A stretch of 64,000 nucleotides of DNA from Rhea pennata. Taxonomy: Eukaryota; Chordata; Aves; Rheiformes; Rheidae. Within the stretch, counting starts at the first letter, position 1. The number at the start of each line of letters is the position of its first letter. The notes below the pieces were generated by a model. The model was not told the origin of the DNA, did not search any database, and saw nothing but the letters and a program-made list of their open reading frames with translations. Position numbers and translations under genes: made by a program. The DNA lies in the NCBI RefSeq assembly GCF_028389875.1, contig NC_084675.1, positions 21,476,412 to 21,540,411 of the forward strand, in the 5' to 3' direction. This document shows positions 15,220 through 63,432 of the stretch, piece after piece.

Positions 15220-15312
15220 TTAAACAAACTCCTGTTGCAGCCATCTGCTTGATTTTAAAATAAATCAAACAATCTGTTGAGCCGTGGGTGATCAAATTTC
15301 CATCTGTGCGGA
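15220..15312. promoter_or_regulatory. Candidate conserved noncoding island
   Basis: A 90-bp AT-rich island contains GCCATCTGCTTGATTT, AAATAAATCAAACAATC and a second CCATCTG E-box near its right end. It is sharply bounded by CpG-rich DNA. Confidence 0.3.
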
Positions 15313-15845
15313 CGCCTGCTCGCCTCCTCGGAGCCTCCGCTTGCCTCTACCAGCCAAACGCTCCTGGCAGCATGTGGCCTCCCTAATTCCTGCAGGAAAG
15401 GGAGAAACCGGACCTCCCCCCCCCGCCACCCTCCCAACACCAGCCGCGCGCTGCTTTCCCAGCCGCCCGAACCTGCTGGCATTTGGGACCAAAAGGGGGT
15501 AAGAGGAAGGGGACCCCGAGCAGGCATGCGACCCGGGGCACCAGCGGGATGAGGCGCGACCCCCCCTGTGCGCAAGCAGCGGCAGCAAGGCCGGAGGGGC
15601 CGGCAACAAGCTCTTGCATGGGATTGCAGTGAGCTGCGTGCTCAGAGGGCCCGGGAGAGCTCCCGGGAGCGGGCCGCCGGCTGCAAAGGCTTTGCACAGC
15701 TCCACAAGCGAGCAGCACCAGCCCCCTGCGCTCAGCATGGCAGAATCAGGCCTGGAGAGCGCCTGGATCAGGGACCAGTGAGGGAAACGCAGCTGGAATA
15801 AACAGGCAATGCAGGGGCTCTCTCCCTGGCAGGGCCACGACGATG

Positions 15846-16265
15846 CCAAAGCATCCTCGTGCAACCCCTGCCCGGCACCTGCCCTGCCGACAAGCCCCCC
15901 AAGCATCCCTCCGACACCAAAGCATCCTCGTGCAACCCCTGCCCGGCACCTGCCCTGCCGGCGAGCCCCCCAAGCATCCCCCCACACCAAAGCATCCTCG
16001 TGCAACCCCTGCCCGCCACCTGCCCTGCCGGCGAGCCCCCCAAACATCCCCCCACGCCAAAGCACCCTCGTGCAACCCCTGCCCGGCACTTGCCCTGCCG
16101 ATGAGACCCCCAAACATCCCTCCGACACCAAAGCATCCTTGTGCAACCCCTGCCCAGCACCTGCCCTGCCGACGAGCCCCCCAAGCATCCCCCCATGCAA
16201 AAGCATCCTCGTGCAACCCCTGCCCGGCACCTGCCGTGCCAACGAGCCCCCCAAACATCCCCCCC
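15846..16265. repeat. 70-71-bp minisatellite, about six units
   Basis: Units start near 15,846, 15,917, 15,987, 16,057, 16,128 and 16,198. Each contains CCAAAGCATCCTCGTGCAAC, then CCCTGCCCGGCACCTGCC, then GCGAGCCCCCCAA. The alternating 70- and 71-base lengths come from one base in the final CCCTCCGACA or CCCCCCACA segment. The open frames over the array are artefacts. Confidence 0.95.
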
Positions 16266-16714
16266 CAGTGCCACGGCACAAGGTGCAGCTTCGCTCCGAC
16301 ACCCGGAGCAAGCAGGTTATGCTGCACAAGCAATGCAGGGAGCCGGAGGGGATTCAAACCCCTTTTTCGGGGAGGGAAGGGCTGACAGGACCTGGCTGGG
16401 AAGCAGGAGAAAGGCCAGGTTTCCCAGTCGCCGCACAGATGTTCTGGACTGCAAACAGAAGACGACAGCAGCGAATTCATCTCCCGCTCCAGAGACACCG
16501 CAGCCAGGGCATCTGGAGCGTATCCGAAGGCAGCAGGGGTGGCGCCCCCCCGGTGCCGGGGACCCGCGGAGCCCCGCGCACCAGGGCCGCTGCAAAGGCG
16601 AGGCGCCGATGCCGGCCCCCCCGGCAGCTGGGCCCCCCCGCCGGCGTCGACCTTGGCAAGTCTGCCTCCCAGGAAAACTGAAGGGCCTGGTCTTCCCCGT
16701 GTTTTCACTTCGGG

Positions 16715-21400: not shown

Positions 21401-22491
21401 GGGACAAAAGCAGTAATTTCCCCGTTTCACGAGACAGATAAACTTGCCGCGAGTAAATCCCCCTCGCTCTTCCGTGCTGCTCTGCACGAAAGCAGCCCGA
21501 AGCGTGCCGTGCCACCCGGCTCAGGGCTCGTCCGCACCGGGACGCGCCAAAAAGAGTAATCCGTAACATAAATCAGAAGCGACCGGGTGACGCTGAACTG
21601 AGGCCACTAATTCGGGACAGGACTGTCGACACGGAGCTAAATCACAATAAATCTGTGCTCTCTCAATTCTACCTTTTTGAACATACAGCTTAACTTGAAG
21701 GAGGCAGAAGGCATTACCCTCTCCCTACAGATAAACACGGAGGAGCGGATAGCTGTGTCCCCGGGTCCCAGCCCTGCACCCAGAGGACACATCTCACCCC
21801 CGAGCTCGGGGGAGCAGCAGCCCACCCAGGCTCGGAGGCTCCTCTCCCGCGGCCGCGCACGGGCAGGGCGCAGCGGCTCGGGTCCAGGAGCCCCCGCGCT
21901 GGCTTCCCAGCCGCAGGAAGGACTCGAGTTTCTCCTCAAGGAAACCGTGTCGCTAGGGCGCCTTATAAACCCAAAGATAACTCGGGAGCTTTGCTCTGCG
22001 GCGGAGACTCCGCGCTCCTCGGGCTGGAGGAATTTCCCGAGGATCCCGTCTGCCGCGGGCAGGCCGGCCAGCGCTGCTGGCAGGGCACAGGCAGCCTGTC
22101 AGACTTCCCTCTGCTCTGGCAACTATTATTATCCATGATTAAGAGAGGTACAAGATCAGGATTTCCCATTCTGGCCACCTCGAATCACAAACAACCCCAC
22201 CTCCTCTATCTAGGGCTCCAAAAGAGCAGGCGCCAGTAACACAGATACGTGTTTTTGCAACAGGACAGAACTTGGCACCGCTGAGCCTCTTGGAAGGATT
22301 TCTCTCCATTCCTTTTCGGTTTGATGCCTCCAGAAGCTCGTTGCTAAAAGCACCCCATTTATCCACATTCGCCCCCAGAGATCAGACCCAAAAGATGAGC
22401 ATCCATCTGTAGCACCGCTCCAAACCGTACTGAAGCCAGCCTCCGGGAAAGCACGGGAGCGGAGGGAAGGGGCCCGGGCCAAGCGCCTTAC

Positions 22492-24453
22492 CTTGGGGAG
22501 CAGAGCTGGGGGCGTCGCAGCCAGAAGCTCCGGGGGCGTCACGTTCTTGCCAGCCAGGACCACGGCCCCGCACTCGGCACACGCGCCGATGGTCAGCTGC
22601 TTCCCGTCATCCACCAGCAAGCTGTTGGCCACGCGGAGCGTGTAGAGGAACACGGGGAGCCTGGCAACTTGCACTGCTTTTAATCCAAGACATCGCTTCT
22701 TCTCCTGGCGGCAGAAGAAGCAGACGAACGTCTCCACTCTGTACTGCCGGGACCAGGCGCTGCTGGGGTGGTGGGAATTCCTGCCCTCGTGCTGCAGCCA
22801 CTGCCCAAGCAGGTCGTGGTAGCAGAGCACGCAGGTGGCCACGAGCCCCGTGGAGTCCGCCGGCCTGGCCCGAGGGGCGGGCGGGTAGACCGTGAGGAAG
22901 GGGAAAAAGGGCTCCTTCTCGCCAAAGCGCCCCGGCGGGTTGACGTTGAGCTGGAACTCCTTGCCGGCTCCCAGCTCGGCCCCACAGATGTAGCAAACTG
23001 AGGTGGAGCCGGACTTGATGGTGGGGTGCCCGGGTAGGCCGCTGGGGTCGCCGGCGGAGAACACCTGGTGGTACCTTCCTAGGAAGCTCTGCACCGAGGT
23101 GATGAGCTCCTCGTTGTGGCAGGCCCTGTACATGGCCCACAGGTCCTGCAAGACCCCGTAGCACTTCCGGCAGCTGCTCACCTCCCAGTGCTTGTTCAGC
23201 CCCTTGGCGCTGGGCGGGCACGGCAGGAGGCTGAGGAAGGGGAAGTGCATGGTGCTCTTGGCGTTCCCGTTGGTGATCTTGGCGGCCACCAGCCTCACCT
23301 CTTTGCCACACTCCTCCCCGCAGAGGTAGCAGGCCTCGGGCGCCGGGGCTGGGCCTGCGCCGTCCTCCTTGAGCCCTCGCCTGCCCTTGGGGGGCATGCC
23401 CGCGGCGCCGGCGTTGAGGGGCACCACGTAGAGCCGCTGGAGCACGGGCACGTTGGCCAACTCGAAGCTTTGCCACTGCTGCATGAGGGAGGCGAAGCAG
23501 CAGGGGCACACCAGGGTGCTGCCGGTGGGCGACAGGGGCTGGGCGCCCGGCGGGGGGCTGTGCAGCCACAGGAAGGGGAAGAAGGGCGCCTGCGACGTCT
23601 TCTCCTGCTTCTGCACATGGACCCGGTGCTGCGAGGCGGGCGACAAGGGGCTGCCGCAGACGTAGCAGACGGTGCCGGCCGCCGGCGCGCCCCAAGCGGG
23701 CCGCTCGCCCTCCTCCTCCTCCTCCTCCTCCTCCTCGCTGGTGATGTTGATCTCGCTGTCCTCGGAGGAGCAGCACGGCGGCCCCCGCTTGGCCGCCGCC
23801 GGCGGGAGGGGGGGCCGCGCCGCGCCGCCCGCCCCCTCGGGCTCCGAGAGCGCCTCGGCGTCGGAGAGCTCGGAGAGCTCGGAGCCCGCCGGCGGCCCTT
23901 CCTCCTCACCCCGCTCCTCCTCCTCCTCCTCCTCGTGGTCCCGGCCGGGCGCGGCGGCGCGGCGCGGCGCGCCGGCGGGGTCCCAGCCCGGCGCCCCCCG
24001 CCGCAGCCCGCCGCCCGCCGCCGCCGCCGCCTCGCACTGGTGCGGCCGCTTGAGCCAGTACATGCGCTTCTCCACGGGCGTGCGGCTCCGCTCGAAGGAG
24101 TCCCACTGCTCGCCGAGGAAGCAGCGGCAGACGGCGCAGACCAGGGCGCAGCCCTCCGCCGAGACGGCGCGGGCGCCGGGCGCCGGCTCCTGGTGCTGCA
24201 GGAAGGGGAAGAAGGGCCGGTGGTCGCGGGGGGGCCGCACTTGCAGCTTCAGCTCCTTGCCGCGGCTGATGCCGCCGCCGCAGATGAAGCAGCAGAGCGG
24301 AGCCGCCGGGGGCTGCGGCGCCCCGGGGCCGCCCGCCGCCGCCGCCGCGCCGCCCTCGCCGGCCGCCAGCGCGGCCATGAGCCGCTGCTTGCGGGAGAGC
24401 GGCGCCGCCGCCGGCCCCGGCCCCGGCCCCGGCCCCGGCCCCGGCGCGCTCAT
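22492..24453 (-). CDS. GSE1: GSE1, large 5' coding exon with a Cys-x2-Cys repeat array
   Basis: This exon encodes 654 residues from ATG at 24,453 to a GTAAGG splice donor beginning at 22,491, in phase 0. The start is chosen as the first ATG of the conserved-looking protein: it has G at -3, and the frame upstream is low-complexity. Five units each hold two Cys-x2-Cys pairs: C55/C58 with C106/C109, C263/C266 with C316/C319, C375/C378 with C428/C431, C487/C490 with C541/C544, and C578/C581 with C625/C628. Units 1-4 have an F-P-F-L signature between the pairs (82, 292, 404 and 517). Acidic linkers lie at 174-185 and 232-249. Cysteine pairing suggests zinc binding, which is an inference. The name rests on synteny: the exon lies next to CIBAR2 and KIAA0513 in the position and strand of the extended human GSE1 transcript. 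GSE1 is known as a coiled-coil partner of the CoREST/HDAC co-repressor, but that part of the protein is outside this window. Confidence 0.65.
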
Positions 24454-24925
24454 CGCCGCCCCCGGCTCATCCCGCCGCTCCGCCGGACACGCAGGCTCGG
24501 GGGGCGGGTTTGCAGCGCCGCTTCCCCGCGCCCGCCCCCGCCCGCCCCCGCGCTCCGCGGAAAGGCAAAGGAAAAAAAAAAAAAAGAAAAAAAAAAGGAA
24601 AAAAAAAAAGAGAGAGAGAGAGAGAGAAAAGTTCGCCGCCAAAGTTTGGCTCCGGCGGCGGCGCGGAGCGAGCAGGCAGGCGGCGAGCAGGCGCCGCGGC
24701 CCCGCCGCCCCGCGCTGGCCCCGCCGGCGGGCGGCCCCGGCGCCCCCGGCCCGGCTCCTCCCCGGCCCCGCCGCCCGCCCGCCCCGCGCTCGCCTGCTCG
24801 GGGGGAGGCGGCGGCCCGGCCCGGCCCGGCCCGGCCCGGCCCGGCCCCGCCGCGCCGCAGCCGCAGCGGCGCTTGGGCGGCCGCGAGGCTCCGACAGCCT
24901 CCGCGGGAGGGGGGTGCGAGCCCGC
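24454..24925 (-). promoter_or_regulatory. CpG-island promoter and 5' untranslated region of the GSE1 exon
   Basis: Extremely CpG-rich DNA lies directly upstream of the ATG and has no convincing TATA box. On the plus strand, seven GGCCC/CGGCC pentamers (about 24,808-24,846) form a G-quadruplex-prone block. No upstream stop exists in the coding frame before 25,371, but the upstream peptide is low-complexity and I do not treat it as coding. The transcription start cannot be fixed from the sequence. Confidence 0.55.
24557..24631. repeat. Purine tract with (GA)n
   Basis: About 75 bases of almost pure A and G, ending in about nine GA units. Read on the transcribed minus strand it is a CT/T-rich tract, 100-180 bases before the ATG. 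Such tracts can form triplexes and act as GAGA-type promoter elements. The function here is inference. Confidence 0.85.
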
Positions 24926-25420
24926 CCCACGGGGCGGGGGGGACGTGCATACCGGCCCCGCTGCAGCGGGGTGCAGAGCAGCCCCACGGGGCGGGGGGGA
25001 AGGGAGGGATCGGGCAAACCGACCCCACGGGAGGGGGGGGACTGTGCAAACTGACCCCACGGGGGGGACCATGTAAGGCAATCCCACGGGGGCAGGGTTG
25101 TGCAAACCGACCCCATGGGGGGGGGTGCAAACTGCAGCGGGGTGCAGAGCAACCCCATGGGGGGTGGGGGATTGCGCAAACCGACCCCACAGTGGGAACT
25201 TTGCAAGCTGGTCCCACCAGAGGTGGGGGGAGAGGACGTGCAAACCGACCCCACTGCAGCGGGGTGCAAAGCAACCCCATAGTGTGTGGGGGGGGGCAAT
25301 GTGCGCTCTGACCCCACTGCAGCGGGGTGCAAAGCAACCCCACTGGGGGGGGGGGTGCAGACTGATCCCACAAAGGGGATTTACACCCAACCCCACATGA
25401 GGGGACCTTGGGGACCAAAC
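24925..25420. repeat. Irregular G-rich minisatellite upstream of GSE1
   Basis: Copies of GCAAACCGACCCCACGGG, or shorter variants, alternate with a second module, CTGCAGCGGGGTGCARAGCA, seen near 24,960, 25,132, 25,253 and 25,316. Long G runs separate the copies. The array lies about 0.5-1 kb upstream of the ATG and gives stop-free frames on the minus strand. Confidence 0.85.
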
Positions 25421-56959: not shown

Positions 56960-57020
56960 CTGCAGGGGTGCACGGGTGTCCGCGGGTGCACGGGTGTCCG
57001 TGCGTGCACGGGTGTCCGCG
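56960..57020. repeat. Short GTGCACGGGTGTCCG repeat
   Basis: Four imperfect 13-17-bp copies of GTGCACGGGTGTCCG, 120 bp past the KIAA0513 stop codon on the transcribed strand. Confidence 0.8.
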
Positions 57021-57143
57021 GCTGTTGCATTCGGTAGCAGATCCTCCGCTGCAGAGCGCCCCGGAGGCGGCAGTCGCTGCGCTCCCGCTCCGGACGCCCG
57101 GGCTCTGCCTCCTCCGGCCCGCCGCGGCGCCCCGGCCGGGCGG

Positions 57144-57193
57144 CTATTCGGCAGCCATCTGCTCGATGTGGTCGCTCAGCAGCTTGTACTGCT
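57144..57193 (-). CDS. KIAA0513: KIAA0513 last coding exon with stop codon
   Basis: The acceptor is CCCCGCAG. The exon completes a split glutamate codon, then reads [15 protein letters not shown] and stops with TAG at 57,144-57,146. The C-terminus matches the family exactly in length. Confidence 0.92.
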
Positions 57194-57279
57194 CTGCGGG
57201 GGGGAGAGGAGGCAGGGCGGGGGGCACGGGGCGGCCGCTCGCCCCCGAGGCCGCCCGCCGCCGCCCGGCTCGCCCTTAC

Positions 57280-57374
57280 CTTCGTCCAAGCTGCCGATGG
57301 TCGCCTGCTTCTTCAGGAAGTCGCTGCAGAGCTTCTTGCTGAGGCCGAAGGCCAGCATGTTGTGGATGAAGGTG
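57280..57374 (-). CDS. KIAA0513: KIAA0513 penultimate coding exon
   Basis: This exon is 95 bases long, between acceptor GTCCTCAG and donor GTAAGG. It reads [20 protein letters not shown] and then [11 protein letters not shown] with split codons at both ends. The segment is predicted helical and conserved. Confidence 0.92.
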
Positions 57375-57536
57375 CTGAGGACAGGGAGATGTGCGCGCCC
57401 TTGGTGCAGGCAGGTCCCAGCACCTCCCCACCCCATCCTCCTCTTCCTCCCCCCGGCCCTTTGCCCGGGGCCGGGCCGCCCCCCCCTCGGCGGCGGGGTG
57501 CCGGCTGCGGGTCCCCGGCCGCGCGCCCGCGCTCAC

Positions 57537-57617
57537 CCCAGCTGCCCGAAGGTGATGTTCTCGTTGAAGCGCAGGCTGTCGTCGCGCTCCTCCTGCGTCA
57601 TGTGGCACCACTTCTCC
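57537..57617 (-). CDS. KIAA0513: KIAA0513 exon with the [17 protein letters not shown] segment
   Basis: This exon is 81 bases long, between acceptor CCTTGCAG and donor GTGAGC. It has 26 complete codons ending NENITFGQL. The intron before it (57,618-61,084) is the longest KIAA0513 intron in the window. Confidence 0.92.
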
Positions 57618-60600
57618 CTGCAAGGCACGAGCACCGCCGTCGCCCCGCGCGGGACCCCCCCCCTCCCCGCCCCAAGGCCCGCGACCCTCTGCGTTTCGAC
57701 CGTCCCAAGCCCCGGAGCATCCGCTTTCTCTCCGAGCCCAACACCAGGAGCAACTTCAGCTCACGGCAAAACCCAAATCCGCCCTCGGCTCCTCCTCGCA
57801 GGCGCTACGTGTTTGCACCGGCACGAGGAGGCGGCCGGGTCCCCGGGCACGCGTCCCCCTCGCCGGGCCTTCGGCGGCCGAGCCGGCGCGGCGCCGAGCG
57901 GGGCGGACGTCACCGTGCCAGGGCATGATGCCGGCTATGGATCAGTGCGTGCACGTCGGGAAAGCTACAGCTCCGGGGTGAAGCCAGCCCTCTTCCGGAT
58001 AGAGGTCGGGGAAGGGTACAGATGAGGGTAAGAGGATAAAAGAAAAGGAAGGAAAAATAGGGACAGGTAGAAGAAAAAAAAATATATATATATATATATG
58101 TGTGTGTGTATATATATATATATGGAGGAGAAGCAAGAGGACAGCACGAATAGACCACGCGCGCAGCACACGGCGCAGCCCGCCCCCAAACAGGATCAGA
58201 GACGCGGCGCCGGACGGAGGCGGCTGCCTGGGAAGGGGGGGGGTTCGCCGCTAGTTCAGCGGTGCAAGTGCGGAGGCAGTGAGCGCGGCTGTTGCTGAAG
58301 CTGGAGGACGACGAGCGCTCGACGAGGCTTGCCCACGAAGACGCCTGCCCTCGCTCAAGTCGGCTCTGGCGCGCAGAAGCTGCTGAGCGGGGCCTTCGCT
58401 CAAGGGGGTGGGCCGCCTAGAGCGACACGGCTCCGCGAACTTCGTACGAGACTTTAAAAAAGGATTTAAAACAAAAATTTTCTCCCAGATAAAGCTCACG
58501 ATAGCAGGGGAAACATATCCGGAGGTTGAGAAGAACAGAGAAGAATCAAGCTTTTATCAAAGCTTTGAAAGCTGGAAGCAAAACTTCACAGGTCTCACTG
58601 GCCCCTTTACAGGGGGAGCAAGTTTGCATGCTGCTTCTTTCTTCTTTTTTTTTCTTTTCTTTTTTTCTTTTTTTTTTTTTTGCCTTTTTATGTTTTTCAT
58701 GGAGGAAGGGAAAAAGAATTATCAAAGTGGCCAAGAAAAATTCACCGTGCTTCTGGCCTGTTACGCAGCAGTAAGGTGCCTGGAAAGGGGGAACGCCCCA
58801 CGCGCGGCTCTATCCAAACCCTTCGAGCTGCGCGCTGGCCCGGCAGGGCCATCTCCTCCCCTCTTGCAAACGTGACCCCGTTTCGGCTGCCCGCCGGCGT
58901 GCGGAGGAAGCGTCTCAGCCCCTGCGAGGGCAGATCCTGCTGCTGCAGCCGCCTGCCGCGACGCGCCAGCAAGGCTCGGCCCACACCACCACGCCGGGCT
59001 CCCAGCAGCGGCGGTTCGCCCCGACGGCTAACCCGAGCCACGCTCTATCTGAGCAAGTTTTGGTTATCCAGCTCCCAGTGCACGCCTTAGCCACGCTAAA
59101 AATTTACTGCCAGGCTCCCACGGGCCTTCGTTAGTGCTGTCGCTTCAAGCGGTTTGCTCCAACGTCAAGTTTTCCAAGCGCCAGCGGTAGGGCAAAGACC
59201 CTCCACCCCTGCGGATCCCACCTCTGATCGCCGGCGGACGTGGCCGCTTCCAGGCTTTGCAAGCCGCAGCGCGCGCTTGCGGCTGCAGCGTGCGGCCGCC
59301 GCTTGCATTTCTCTTTTTGTGCAAGGATGGCAACGTGAGGGCACGCGGGAAAGAAAAAATAAATGAATGGAAAAAGGATCAGCTCTTCCAACCGGACAGA
59401 GGTCTTCCCTACCCCAACGCAACGGCACAACCAGGGACGCGCGAAAGCCAGACCGGGGCGTCCGCCCCGCCGGGACGGACACCGAAGCAGCAGCCAGCAG
59501 CACTCGCACGGTGCCGCCACGCGGGTCAACAGCAAGGGGGGAGCAGGAGGCACAGGAGGGGATGACGTTTCCCCCTTCTCCACTAAAAAGACTCAGTTCA
59601 TGTCCAAAAACTGCCCATGGAACAGGCTTGCTGGCGGTGGCTGCCGGGAGGTGCAAGCCGTCCGGTTCCCCATCAGCCGTGCGCCCTGTTTCCACGCCGG
59701 AAGACCGTAACGTGGCAGCCTGAAATTGGTCGGGCTTGTTTTTAAAAAAAACGGCATTAAGGAGAAACCAATCGGAGGTTTTTTAGCTGCTGGGAGGCGG
59801 GCAGCTCGGAGCCCCCCCCCCCCCCGCCGCCTCCGGAGCCTTTCACCCCCCCCCGGGCAGGATTTGGACCCGAAGTGAGTCGGCCCTGTCAGACAGCGCA
59901 ACCAGGTAATGTGGACAGACGGACGGACAGACACACCTCTTTTCCTCTTCCTCTCCAGCGTTCCCTCTGGAGTGGCAGCAGAAACGGGGCCAACAAAGGT
60001 TGGGTGTTAAAGATCATGCAAGATAGATGGATGGGGGAGAGAAAAAGAGGGAGGGGGGAAAAAAGAAGAGAAGAACAGATGATAAAGTTGTTACAGGCAG
60101 AGAGAGAGAGAAAAGAGAGAAAAAAGAGGAATTTAGTTCTTTTTGCTTCCCACTCTCCCCTTCCCTCCCCACCATGGTTGGAAAAAGGGGACCCTGCAGA
60201 AGCCCCGTGCAGATTTCGGGGAAACCGGGGCGGGATTTCCCTTGCAGAGAAGGCTCAGCCACGGGGTGAATTGGGGGAGGCGCTCGGAGCAGAGAGCAGC
60301 TGCCAGGGGCTTATGTCCTTGCGAGACATTTTGCTCCTGCTAATTTGGGGCTTAATCGAAACAAATGTGGTTACGGTTACATTACTGTTCAATAGTTTCT
60401 TTCACTGGTTTGCTTGGGAAAAAAAAAGAAAAAAGAAAAGGAGGAAAGTGTTAAAGGAGAAAGAAAAGACCGATCAGTTCACCGAGCCTGGCAGAGCATC
60501 CTTAAGTGCAAGCAGACGCTGTCGTGGTTGAGCTGCAGGTGCTGGGGGAGGATGCCGGAGGGCTGGCTGCTTCAGCAAGTGCTCGGAAAGGGGACTGGGC

Positions 60601-61084
60601 TAAAACGCTCAGCGGCTTTCCCCCAGGGAGCTCCAGGCCTCTGAGGTATCTCCAAATCCCAGAAAAGGGATTAATTATTTCCTTCCGCGGCAGAAAGCGG
60701 AGCGTTTGCCTGCAGCGCTTCTGCTCAGGGCTGTCGGGAGCAGGGGAAAACGCAGGGACGACCCTGGGTCCACAACCCCCCCCCCGGCTCCTGCCACTCC
60801 ACGCACCCACGTCGCCGCGGGGTCTCGGTTTCGCTGCTGGCCCCCTAACCGGGGCAGCCGGGAGCACTGAAAGGACCTTCTGAAGAAAACAAACCCCAAG
60901 CCCAGGGCTCCAAGCACGGGGGACGTTGCTGAATTCGTTGCACACGAGGACGAGCTGCAGCCACTGCCTTCCCGGGGCAGCGGGACCCAAAGCGCCGCTG
61001 CCGCTCGCGGCGGGACAGCTGGACACCACGGCCCCTCCGCGGGCAGGGGATGGCCGAGGCGGCCGCGTGGGGCTCGCTTCCTAC
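57618..61084 (-). other. KIAA0513 intron
   Basis: About 3.5 kb without coding signal. It contains a TA/TG microsatellite (58,081-58,122), a T-rich tract (58,646-58,682), C runs near 59,812-59,826 and an A/G-rich patch (60,035-60,130). Confidence 0.8.
58081..58122. repeat. (TA)n(TG)n(TA)n compound microsatellite
   Basis: About eight TA units, then about four to five TG units, then about eight TA units. The two TA arms can pair, so a hairpin or cruciform is possible. Confidence 0.92.
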
Positions 61085-61162
61085 CTGGTGGTGGGAGACC
61101 TCTTCCTCCGCTCGCAGTGAACCGCGTCGAAGAAGGCGGCGTTCCAAAACCTCAGGTTGTGC
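61085..61162 (-). CDS. KIAA0513: KIAA0513 exon with the [19 protein letters not shown] segment
   Basis: This exon is 78 bases long, between acceptor CTCGGCAG and donor GTAGGA. It holds 25 complete codons, [20 protein letters not shown] then RSPTT, flanked by split tryptophan and arginine codons. Confidence 0.9.
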
Positions 61163-61624
61163 CTGCCGAGGAGGAAGGAGGCGCTCGCTGCAGCAAAGCC
61201 CCCAACCGGCCCTCCAGCTCCCTGGGAGGCCAAATTTCCCTTGGGAGGTCCGCGTTGGAGATGAGGATCATTGTAAAGAGGAGCCTCGCGCTAACGCTTC
61301 GCAGCCATTAAAGCGACGCCAGCAAACTGCTGCCGAAAGGCTCCGTCCTGCTCCCGTCACCCGCCTGCGCTCCCTGCACGGGCCACAGGCAGGTGAGGGT
61401 CAGCCAGGACCAGCTCCCCAAACCAGCCCCCTGCGTGGCTGCAAACGCCTTCCCCGGCACAAGGGCATGACCGTCTGTTTTAGGGGCAACAACAACTTAA
61501 AAGCAATCAGGAGAGTTCGGGCAAAAGGCAACATGGAGGCAGGGTGGTCAAATCCCCTCTTGCGTTTCCGACCCCAGGGAGCCTCACGCGAGGTGGTAGC
61601 TCAGCCAGCTCCGGGCAGGTTTAC

Positions 61625-61703
61625 CAGATTGGCTGTTGCTTGAGGTGCATGTACAGGTAGATCTTCTCTCCTTTCTTCTCCTCCTCTGGGCTCTGCACGG
61701 AAA
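61625..61703 (-). CDS. KIAA0513: KIAA0513 exon with the [15 protein letters not shown] segment
   Basis: This exon is 79 bases long, between acceptor CCCCACAG and donor GTAAAC. It reads [14 protein letters not shown] and then [12 protein letters not shown], with the tryptophan codon split across the donor. Confidence 0.9.
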
Positions 61704-62273
61704 CTGTGGGGATGCACAATGACACACGGCGCCCTGGAGGACCCTCGCACCCGCGCACAGGCTTGGCACTCCCTGGTGGGTGTCCGAGTGGCCACCATGG
61801 CGAGGTCTGCAAACCAAACGCTTGGCCCCAGCACATCTCCACCAACAAGGAGAAGAGCTTTTGTCCCCTTTGTAGGCAGACATGAAGTCAGACCAACGTG
61901 CAAATGTCCCAGGAGGATGCTTGAGGGCTGGACCCCTCTTTCAGCAGCACAGGTGGCCACTGGGAGGGTGACAAGAGCAACAGGAGCAACGCTAAAGCTC
62001 AGAGACAGCAGACGCCCAAACCTCTCTGCAACCTAACACCTCTGAGGACAAGATGCCTTTGGGTCCCGGTGGGACAGTATATGATATTGCTCCAAAACAA
62101 CAAGCTAAAAGGACTGAAGTGCTTTGAAGCACTTCTCCAGGAGCTTGGGGGAGATATCCCCAGTCCTTCCTGTCACATCTCTACCCCACAGCTCCAGCAA
62201 CACCAGGCATCTCGCACCACTTCCAACCCTCACTCCTTCCCATGCTTAACTCAGCCGCACTGACTCCACTCAC

Positions 62274-62317
62274 CCGTCTTCTTTAGCTTCTGCTTTGGCT
62301 TGTCCTCCCCTTCACTT
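62274..62317 (-). CDS. KIAA0513: KIAA0513 small lysine-rich exon
   Basis: This exon is 44 bases long, between acceptor ATGTCACAG and donor GTGAGT. It reads SEGEDKPKQKLKKT between split codons. It links the acidic/basic linker to the next conserved segment. Confidence 0.85.
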
Positions 62318-62596
62318 CTGTGACATAAAAAATCAGCGTCAGCTCCAAAGAAGCCTGTCCCCACCCAGCCCACAAGGTGAAACCCTGGCTTCCCTGGCAA
62401 GGAAGCCACCTTCTTGGGCATGGTCCCCAGGGCCAAAAAGGTGGCCAGAGATATCTCCATGCACTGCCTTCCCTTGGCAGCAACAACCCTGGCTTAGGGG
62501 TGTCCATGCCGAGGAGGTTTCTGGCTCGGCCACATTATGAGTGCATGCCCCCAGCCCACCCAGCCTGCCTGGAGCACCCAGTGGAGTGGTACCCAC

Positions 62597-62804
62597 TCGC
62601 TCTTCCAGGCTGCAGGACCCTTCAGTTTGGTCTCCAGGCCCCCAAAGAAGCCCTTCACGTTCTCAGTCTTGGCTGACGTGTTCTTCAACAGCCGCTCCGC
62701 TATGTCCTTCTTCTCAGCCAGCCAGCTGTTGGCTGACTTCAGGTATGAGTCAATGCTGCCCATGGGCTTCTCCTTGGTCTCCAAGGGCAGAGCATGTGGT
62801 TTGC
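62597..62804 (-). CDS. KIAA0513: KIAA0513 exon with the [19 protein letters not shown] segment
   Basis: The acceptor is CCCCCAG and the donor GTGGGT. The 208-base exon carries two bases of a split glycine codon, 68 codons and two bases. It contains [20 protein letters not shown] and [15 protein letters not shown], hallmark stretches of the protein. The non-canonical-looking donor is supported because only it gives the phase needed by the next exon. Confidence 0.9.
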
Positions 62805-63432
62805 CTGGGGGAAGGCAGCAGGAGCTCAGCGGGCTCTTGGGCCCCACAGCAAACATATAGCTGGGCAAATCTCTGCTGCAAAGAGCACCGCTCTCACGGC
62901 CCAATGCAGCAGGTGCCACCAGCCCCCAGAGGATCTGCTCCAAGCAATGCTGAAAATGCAACGCAAAGACCAGGAGCCAGACTGGAATGATCCAGTCTCC
63001 ATCCCATCACAATTCTTGTAGGTTCTTCCTCCTCTCCCCATTTTGGATAGAAAACCCAGTGTCCCGCATAGGAGTGACTGCCACACACCAGGCAATGAGC
63101 AGAGGCATTTCTGGGTTGGAACTGGATTCATGTGACATCCCCAGGATAAGGGGACATCTGGGGATTGCCACATATGAATTTCCCTGGCTAGCTCAGGTAT
63201 GAGAAGCAATGACGCACCAACCCAACACAAGTAGGGTCTGCAGCAGGTAGGCACAGCCTCCATGCCATGAAGGCCCTTCTCCTATCAGCATCTGAGTCAG
63301 CCAGCATAAACCAAGTTCAGAGATGCCTTCCATCACCCTTCCCCATGCAGGGCAAACCTCAGCACCGGGGCCAAAAGCATTTCAGCATCTGTCTCCAGCA
63401 CAAAAAAACCCGAGGCTGCAGACACCTCTTAC

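Follow-up and report, generated by a model that had tools for sequence, protein, structure and literature searches.

A probable coding exon upstream of GSE1 in Rhea pennata carries four copies of a four-cysteine module

Within a window of 64,000 nucleotides from Rhea pennata (C13:21476412-21540411), a single large open frame on the minus strand at positions 22492-24453 (C13:21498903-21500864(-)) had been described in a first-pass annotation as an exon of GSE1 (genetic suppressor element 1) with five repeats of one plan, i.e. a Cys-x2-Cys (CxxC) pair followed at some distance by a second such pair. Our analysis of the encoded 654 residues indicates, as judged from the sequence, that four of these units are homologous and that the repeat is genuine, a module of roughly 85-95 residues in four copies being well supported. 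With about even confidence, we read this stretch as a 5' coding exon in CpG-rich DNA, encoding four zinc modules that would act as a docking scaffold, with a long form of GSE1 as its likeliest product.

Ten CxxC pairs are present in the protein, starting at residues 55, 106, 263, 316, 375, 428, 487, 541, 578 and 625, together with four FPFL motifs at residues 82, 292, 404 and 517, so that units 1-4 do each contain FPFL between their two pairs, as had been claimed. Unit 1 (residues 55-138; 24040-24291, minus strand, as for all of the units) reads CFIC, FPFL and CAVC, then QW; unit 2 (residues 263-350; 23404-23667) reads CYVCG, FPFL and CPCC, then QW; unit 3 (residues 375-468; 23050-23331) reads CYLCG, FPFL and CRKC; and unit 4 (residues 487-575; 22729-22995) reads CYICG, FPFL and CVLC, then QW. 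The starts of units 2, 3 and 4 at residues 263, 375 and 487 are exactly 112 residues apart, in agreement with the earlier description, and the proposed interval of 47-54 residues between paired CxxC motifs holds for units 1-4 (47, 49, 49 and 50 respectively), but not for the fifth segment (43). When the protein was shuffled 20,000 times, no more than nine CxxC pairs were obtained, against the ten observed, FPFL never occurred in more than one copy and the CxxC-FPFL-CxxC plan was not recovered in any shuffle.

Comparisons between the units, made by BLAST and with sequence profiles, point in the same direction. Expect (E) values were 3e-20 for units 1 and 2, 5e-17 for units 2 and 4, 1e-16 for units 1 and 4, 1e-8 for units 3 and 4, 2e-6 for units 2 and 3 and 1e-4 for units 1 and 3. 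Leave-one-out profiles, in which three units were compared with the fourth, gave probabilities of 95.5 to 98.9% for units 1-4, unit 3 being the weakest at 95.5%. In an alignment of all five segments, identity to unit 4 was 37, 33, 29 and 23% for units 1, 2 and 3 and the fifth segment respectively, and the invariant positions, counted along the modelled segment of unit 4, were C10, C13, F40, C64 and C67. Two CxxC pairs are found in all four units.

The claim of five repeats of one plan thus stands for units 1-4, as supported by BLAST and the leave-one-out profiles, and fails for the fifth. The remaining CxxC-x43-CxxC segment (residues 578-628; 22570-22722, minus strand), which had been taken for a shortened copy, is of doubtful status as a unit: residues 573-654 scored 17.5 against the profile of units 1-4, with a probability of 3.2% and an E value of 0.014 over 15 columns, which align its second CxxC pair with the first pair of units 1-4. 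BLAST against unit 4 returned the same short match (52% over 21 residues; E 0.007). Full shuffles never attained the profile score of 17.5 (0 of 200; highest value 16.5), whereas 16 of 200 shuffles in which the cysteines were held in place did; the former favour a weak likeness and the latter do not. Because the score is reached with fixed cysteines and the pairs are out of register, we did not accept five homologous units and describe the array as four units plus one segment of doubtful kinship.

The stretch that encodes the array is probably a genuine coding exon. Its frame runs without a stop for 654 codons (1962 bases), starting with the ATG at 24453 and ending in phase 0 at a strong splice donor following 22492; in first-order Markov simulations the open frame was lost in all 2000 cases. 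The G+C content at codon positions 1, 2 and 3 is 0.69, 0.56 and 0.94 within the exon, as against 0.55, 0.56 and 0.53 in the 282 bases beyond the donor; followed in steps of 30 codons, the excess at the third position sets in with the ATG and does not extend past the donor. Coding on the plus strand of 22492-24453 was ruled out by the presence of stops, and read-through past the donor in place of splicing was rejected because the codon signal stops there. The donor GT (22490-22491, minus strand; first intron base 22491) stands in AAG/GTAAGG and had the top score among the sites listed (11.4), whereas a weaker donor-like GT within the exon, in phase 1 and past unit 1 (23908-23909, minus strand), scored 7.9, both values coming from a simple, hand-entered donor matrix. 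The DNA around the exon start (24001-25000) is CpG-rich, with a G+C content of 0.80 and a ratio of observed to expected CpG of 1.01. A frame of six codons lies immediately upstream on the same strand (24450-24470), and its TGA shares bases with the initiating ATG of the long frame (ATGA).

For the fold of the module we relied on an AlphaFold2 model of unit 4, which has a confident core holding both CxxC pairs and a helix at 65-81, with the second pair (64-67) at its N-terminal end. The structure prediction proposed earlier is answered for unit 4, in which the cysteine pairs lie together in one small core. The suggestion that each four-cysteine unit holds one zinc ion gains a plausible site, with both pairs in the core of the unit 4 model. 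A CxxC knuckle of the CYxCG type is a usual zinc pattern and, because of this cysteine pattern and the unit 4 model, we consider that the unit probably binds zinc. The arrangement in the model, a small fold built about two CxxC pairs, the second of which starts a helix, resembles that of the treble-clef zinc fingers, a grouping that takes in the FYVE, ZAD and T4 endonuclease VII types. Structural matches to the model were weak; chains of the treble-clef type were among the top rows of a second structural search, again as weak matches. In contrast with the ZAD of insect zinc-finger proteins, which is usually single and at the N-terminal end, there are four modules here, and no sequence relation to it was seen.

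That the pattern belongs to no named domain, as the first-pass annotation had thought, agrees with the Pfam search of the whole 654-residue protein, in which no family exceeded its cut-off. The scores, with cut-offs in brackets, were 10.0 (24.3) bits for the Rad50 hook, 13.5 (29.3) bits for Rpr2 and 13.6 (27) bits for DUF7576. When the segments were searched singly, the best match was the Rad50 hook, with an E value of 0.0067, in one of the five. The sole sequence match in the PDB, HMGB1, was weak (E 0.23) and was set aside, and the profile of the units matched nothing in the PDB. In searches of the 1.27 gigabase assembly, in which only the best candidates were scored, the whole protein found only its own exon at E <= 0.001, and unit 4 found only the four units, the next match having an E value of 3.95. 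No relatives were found in bacterial and archaeal genomes, plasmids or viral contigs, collections in which a vertebrate gene is not expected.

The proximity of GSE1 was borne out. The GSE1 domain (PF12540), which characterizes this partner of HDAC1/CoREST, has a single locus at C13:21425273-21425749(-), on the same contig and strand as the exon and approximately 73 kilobases (kb) downstream of it. From this domain and the human protein, we take three further segments to be GSE1 exons and number them accordingly: exon 2 (C13:21433099-21433317; 219 bases, phase 1 at both ends, reading MSHESKSPSLGMLSTATRTT...), approximately 66 kb from the exon, exon 3 (about C13:21431714-21431916) and exon 4 (about C13:21429986-21430164). 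The acceptor of exon 4 is a tandem CAGCAG (L005 8165-8170, minus strand), at which one glutamine may be optional. To our knowledge, short GSE1 has no such array, and the human short protein gave no match below an E value of 3.3 in the window. Skipping of human GSE1 exon 2 is stated in PMC6507234 to cause a frameshift; unlike this, skipping of the 219-base exon 2 found here keeps the frame, a discrepancy that reflects either differing numbering or differing structure.

The direct attachment of the whole exon to GSE1, as it had been proposed, did not hold up in our phase tests, which covered exons 2, 3 and 4. The donor is in phase 0, whereas exons 2 and 3, which start GC/ATG and GG/TCG respectively, accept phase 1. 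With exon 2 as its partner, the full exon reads LLPKA and then a stop, one residue further on; with exon 3 it reads LLPKGRPR and then a stop, four residues further on. The full exon joined to exon 4, which is entered in phase 0, stays in frame (LLPK-(Q)DAGSRGGG). Given this mismatch of phase, a long isoform with the full array has either to pass over exons 2 and 3 and join exon 4, or to include a bridging exon, which at 3n+1 bases would restore the frame for the whole array. The internal donor at 23909 joined to exon 2 gives ...DHEEEEEEERG-MSHESKSPS with no stop and would carry unit 1 only; the observations suggest that this form would not be the sole product, because the strong codon signal continues beyond 23909.

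A search of the window for a bridging exon, using rough, custom-made splice matrices and codon scores, gave no candidate at strict splice scores (one on the control strand) and five at relaxed scores, none with a positive codon score (eight on the control strand, one of them just positive). Between the window and exon 2, no trusted bridging exon was recognized at 26 minus-strand donor-like sites in stretches L006-L010, which were viewed by eye after pattern searches, not systematically, sometimes over little more than 100 bases and with two stretches of L006 consisting of N. One candidate, at about 2099-2150 of L009, had the right phase and was rejected for an acceptor that was poor by eye and for G+C at only 7 of 17 third positions. 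Also in this interval, on the minus strand, are two sequences that could serve as alternative first exons of GSE1, MFGLKPPLYYLPG (L007 4570-4606) and MEERSPRWTARPLG (L010 619-658), each ending in phase 1 and continuous with the frame of exon 2, and a possible third at about 2938-3031 of L007, in phase 1 by eye.

These results leave membership of the exon in GSE1 plausible and, unproven as it is, the likeliest single reading. Its chief rival, which we think rather unlikely, is that the exon is the first of a separate gene, with its own transcription unit between a KIAA0513-like gene and GSE1 and its other exons within the approximately 66 kb before exon 2. The exon has its own ATG and a donor phase unfit for GSE1 exons 2 and 3, and the nearest candidate first exon of GSE1 that we noticed is approximately 26 kb further on; against this, no other coding exon was recognized there, and no Pfam family exceeded its cut-off in the 10 of 23 minus-strand frames of at least 200 residues at 1-22 kb of the window that were scanned (L004-L010 lay outside the Pfam scan). 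We know of no coding gene in the corresponding interval of mammals. Distinctly unlikely, in our estimate, is a main junction to exon 2, which would yield a 655-residue protein ending in LLPKA, the array then being produced on its own, with GSE1 possibly made by reinitiation or the messenger RNA lost to nonsense-mediated decay. Exon 2 is indeed the nearest recognized acceptor shared by GSE1 forms, and the join reads AAG GCA TGA, its stop overlapping the ATG of MSHESK (ATGA), but such an overlap may arise by chance, a stop with many junctions downstream of it normally triggers decay, and ribosomes seldom reinitiate after a long frame.

A further rival concerns function rather than splicing and seems to us quite improbable, namely that the cysteine pairs are structural or redox-active and not zinc ligands, or that the modules bind nucleic acid and not protein. 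The model carries no metal, and no family match assigns a function; CYxCG-type knuckles are nevertheless what is usually seen in zinc sites, and the small confident core of the model contains both pairs.

As for the remaining features, units 1 and 2 are separated by an acidic, serine-rich linker of low complexity (residues 172-250; 23704-23940, minus strand), read from the sequence, within which EINITSEEEEEEEEE (23710-23754, minus strand) resembles a SUMO-interacting motif. On the other side of the exon from GSE1, minus-strand exons at about 57000-63000 are what we take to be KIAA0513, and three queries built from them gave no Pfam match. Two long open minus-strand frames of short repeats, at 1495-2784 and 15295-16353, appear to be minisatellite-like and not genes; Pfam gave them either no match or matches short of the cut-off. 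The exon is not described in the available portions of the open-licence literature searched, including PMC10681733, PMC8830420 and PMC6507234, which leaves its absence from the literature unproven, and the public annotation may well contain an automatic GSE1 isoform model that includes it.

Returning to the reading of the exon as part of a long GSE1, each module would fold round one zinc ion held by its two CxxC pairs, such that the first pair forms a knuckle, a short strand follows, the FPFL turn packs inside and the second pair opens a helix, as in treble-clef-like folds. We infer a scaffold for protein-protein interaction from the multiplicity of the modules, the acidic linker and the place of GSE1 in the HDAC1/CoREST complex, as given in PMC10681733; the modules would offer separate docking surfaces, with a disordered acidic linker after the first. 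The likeliest product would be a long GSE1 formed via a bridging exon or by skipping of exons 2 and 3, which would make the array the N-terminal part of a CoREST/HDAC partner; the internal donor may also give rise to a minor product containing only unit 1.

More tentatively, this may be a far-upstream exon of GSE1 in which zinc modules with four cysteines, of a family not described so far, stand in tandem, such that one promoter would give a CoREST/HDAC partner with a large docking scaffold at its N-terminus that was missed in studies of short GSE1, and splicing within the exon could even set the number of modules at one or four. If the exon does belong to GSE1, studies confined to short forms of this HDAC1/CoREST partner have missed a folded array, and the choice of promoter would decide whether extra docking modules enter the complex. 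Even if it belongs to a separate gene, it encodes a fourfold cysteine module that has no Pfam entry.
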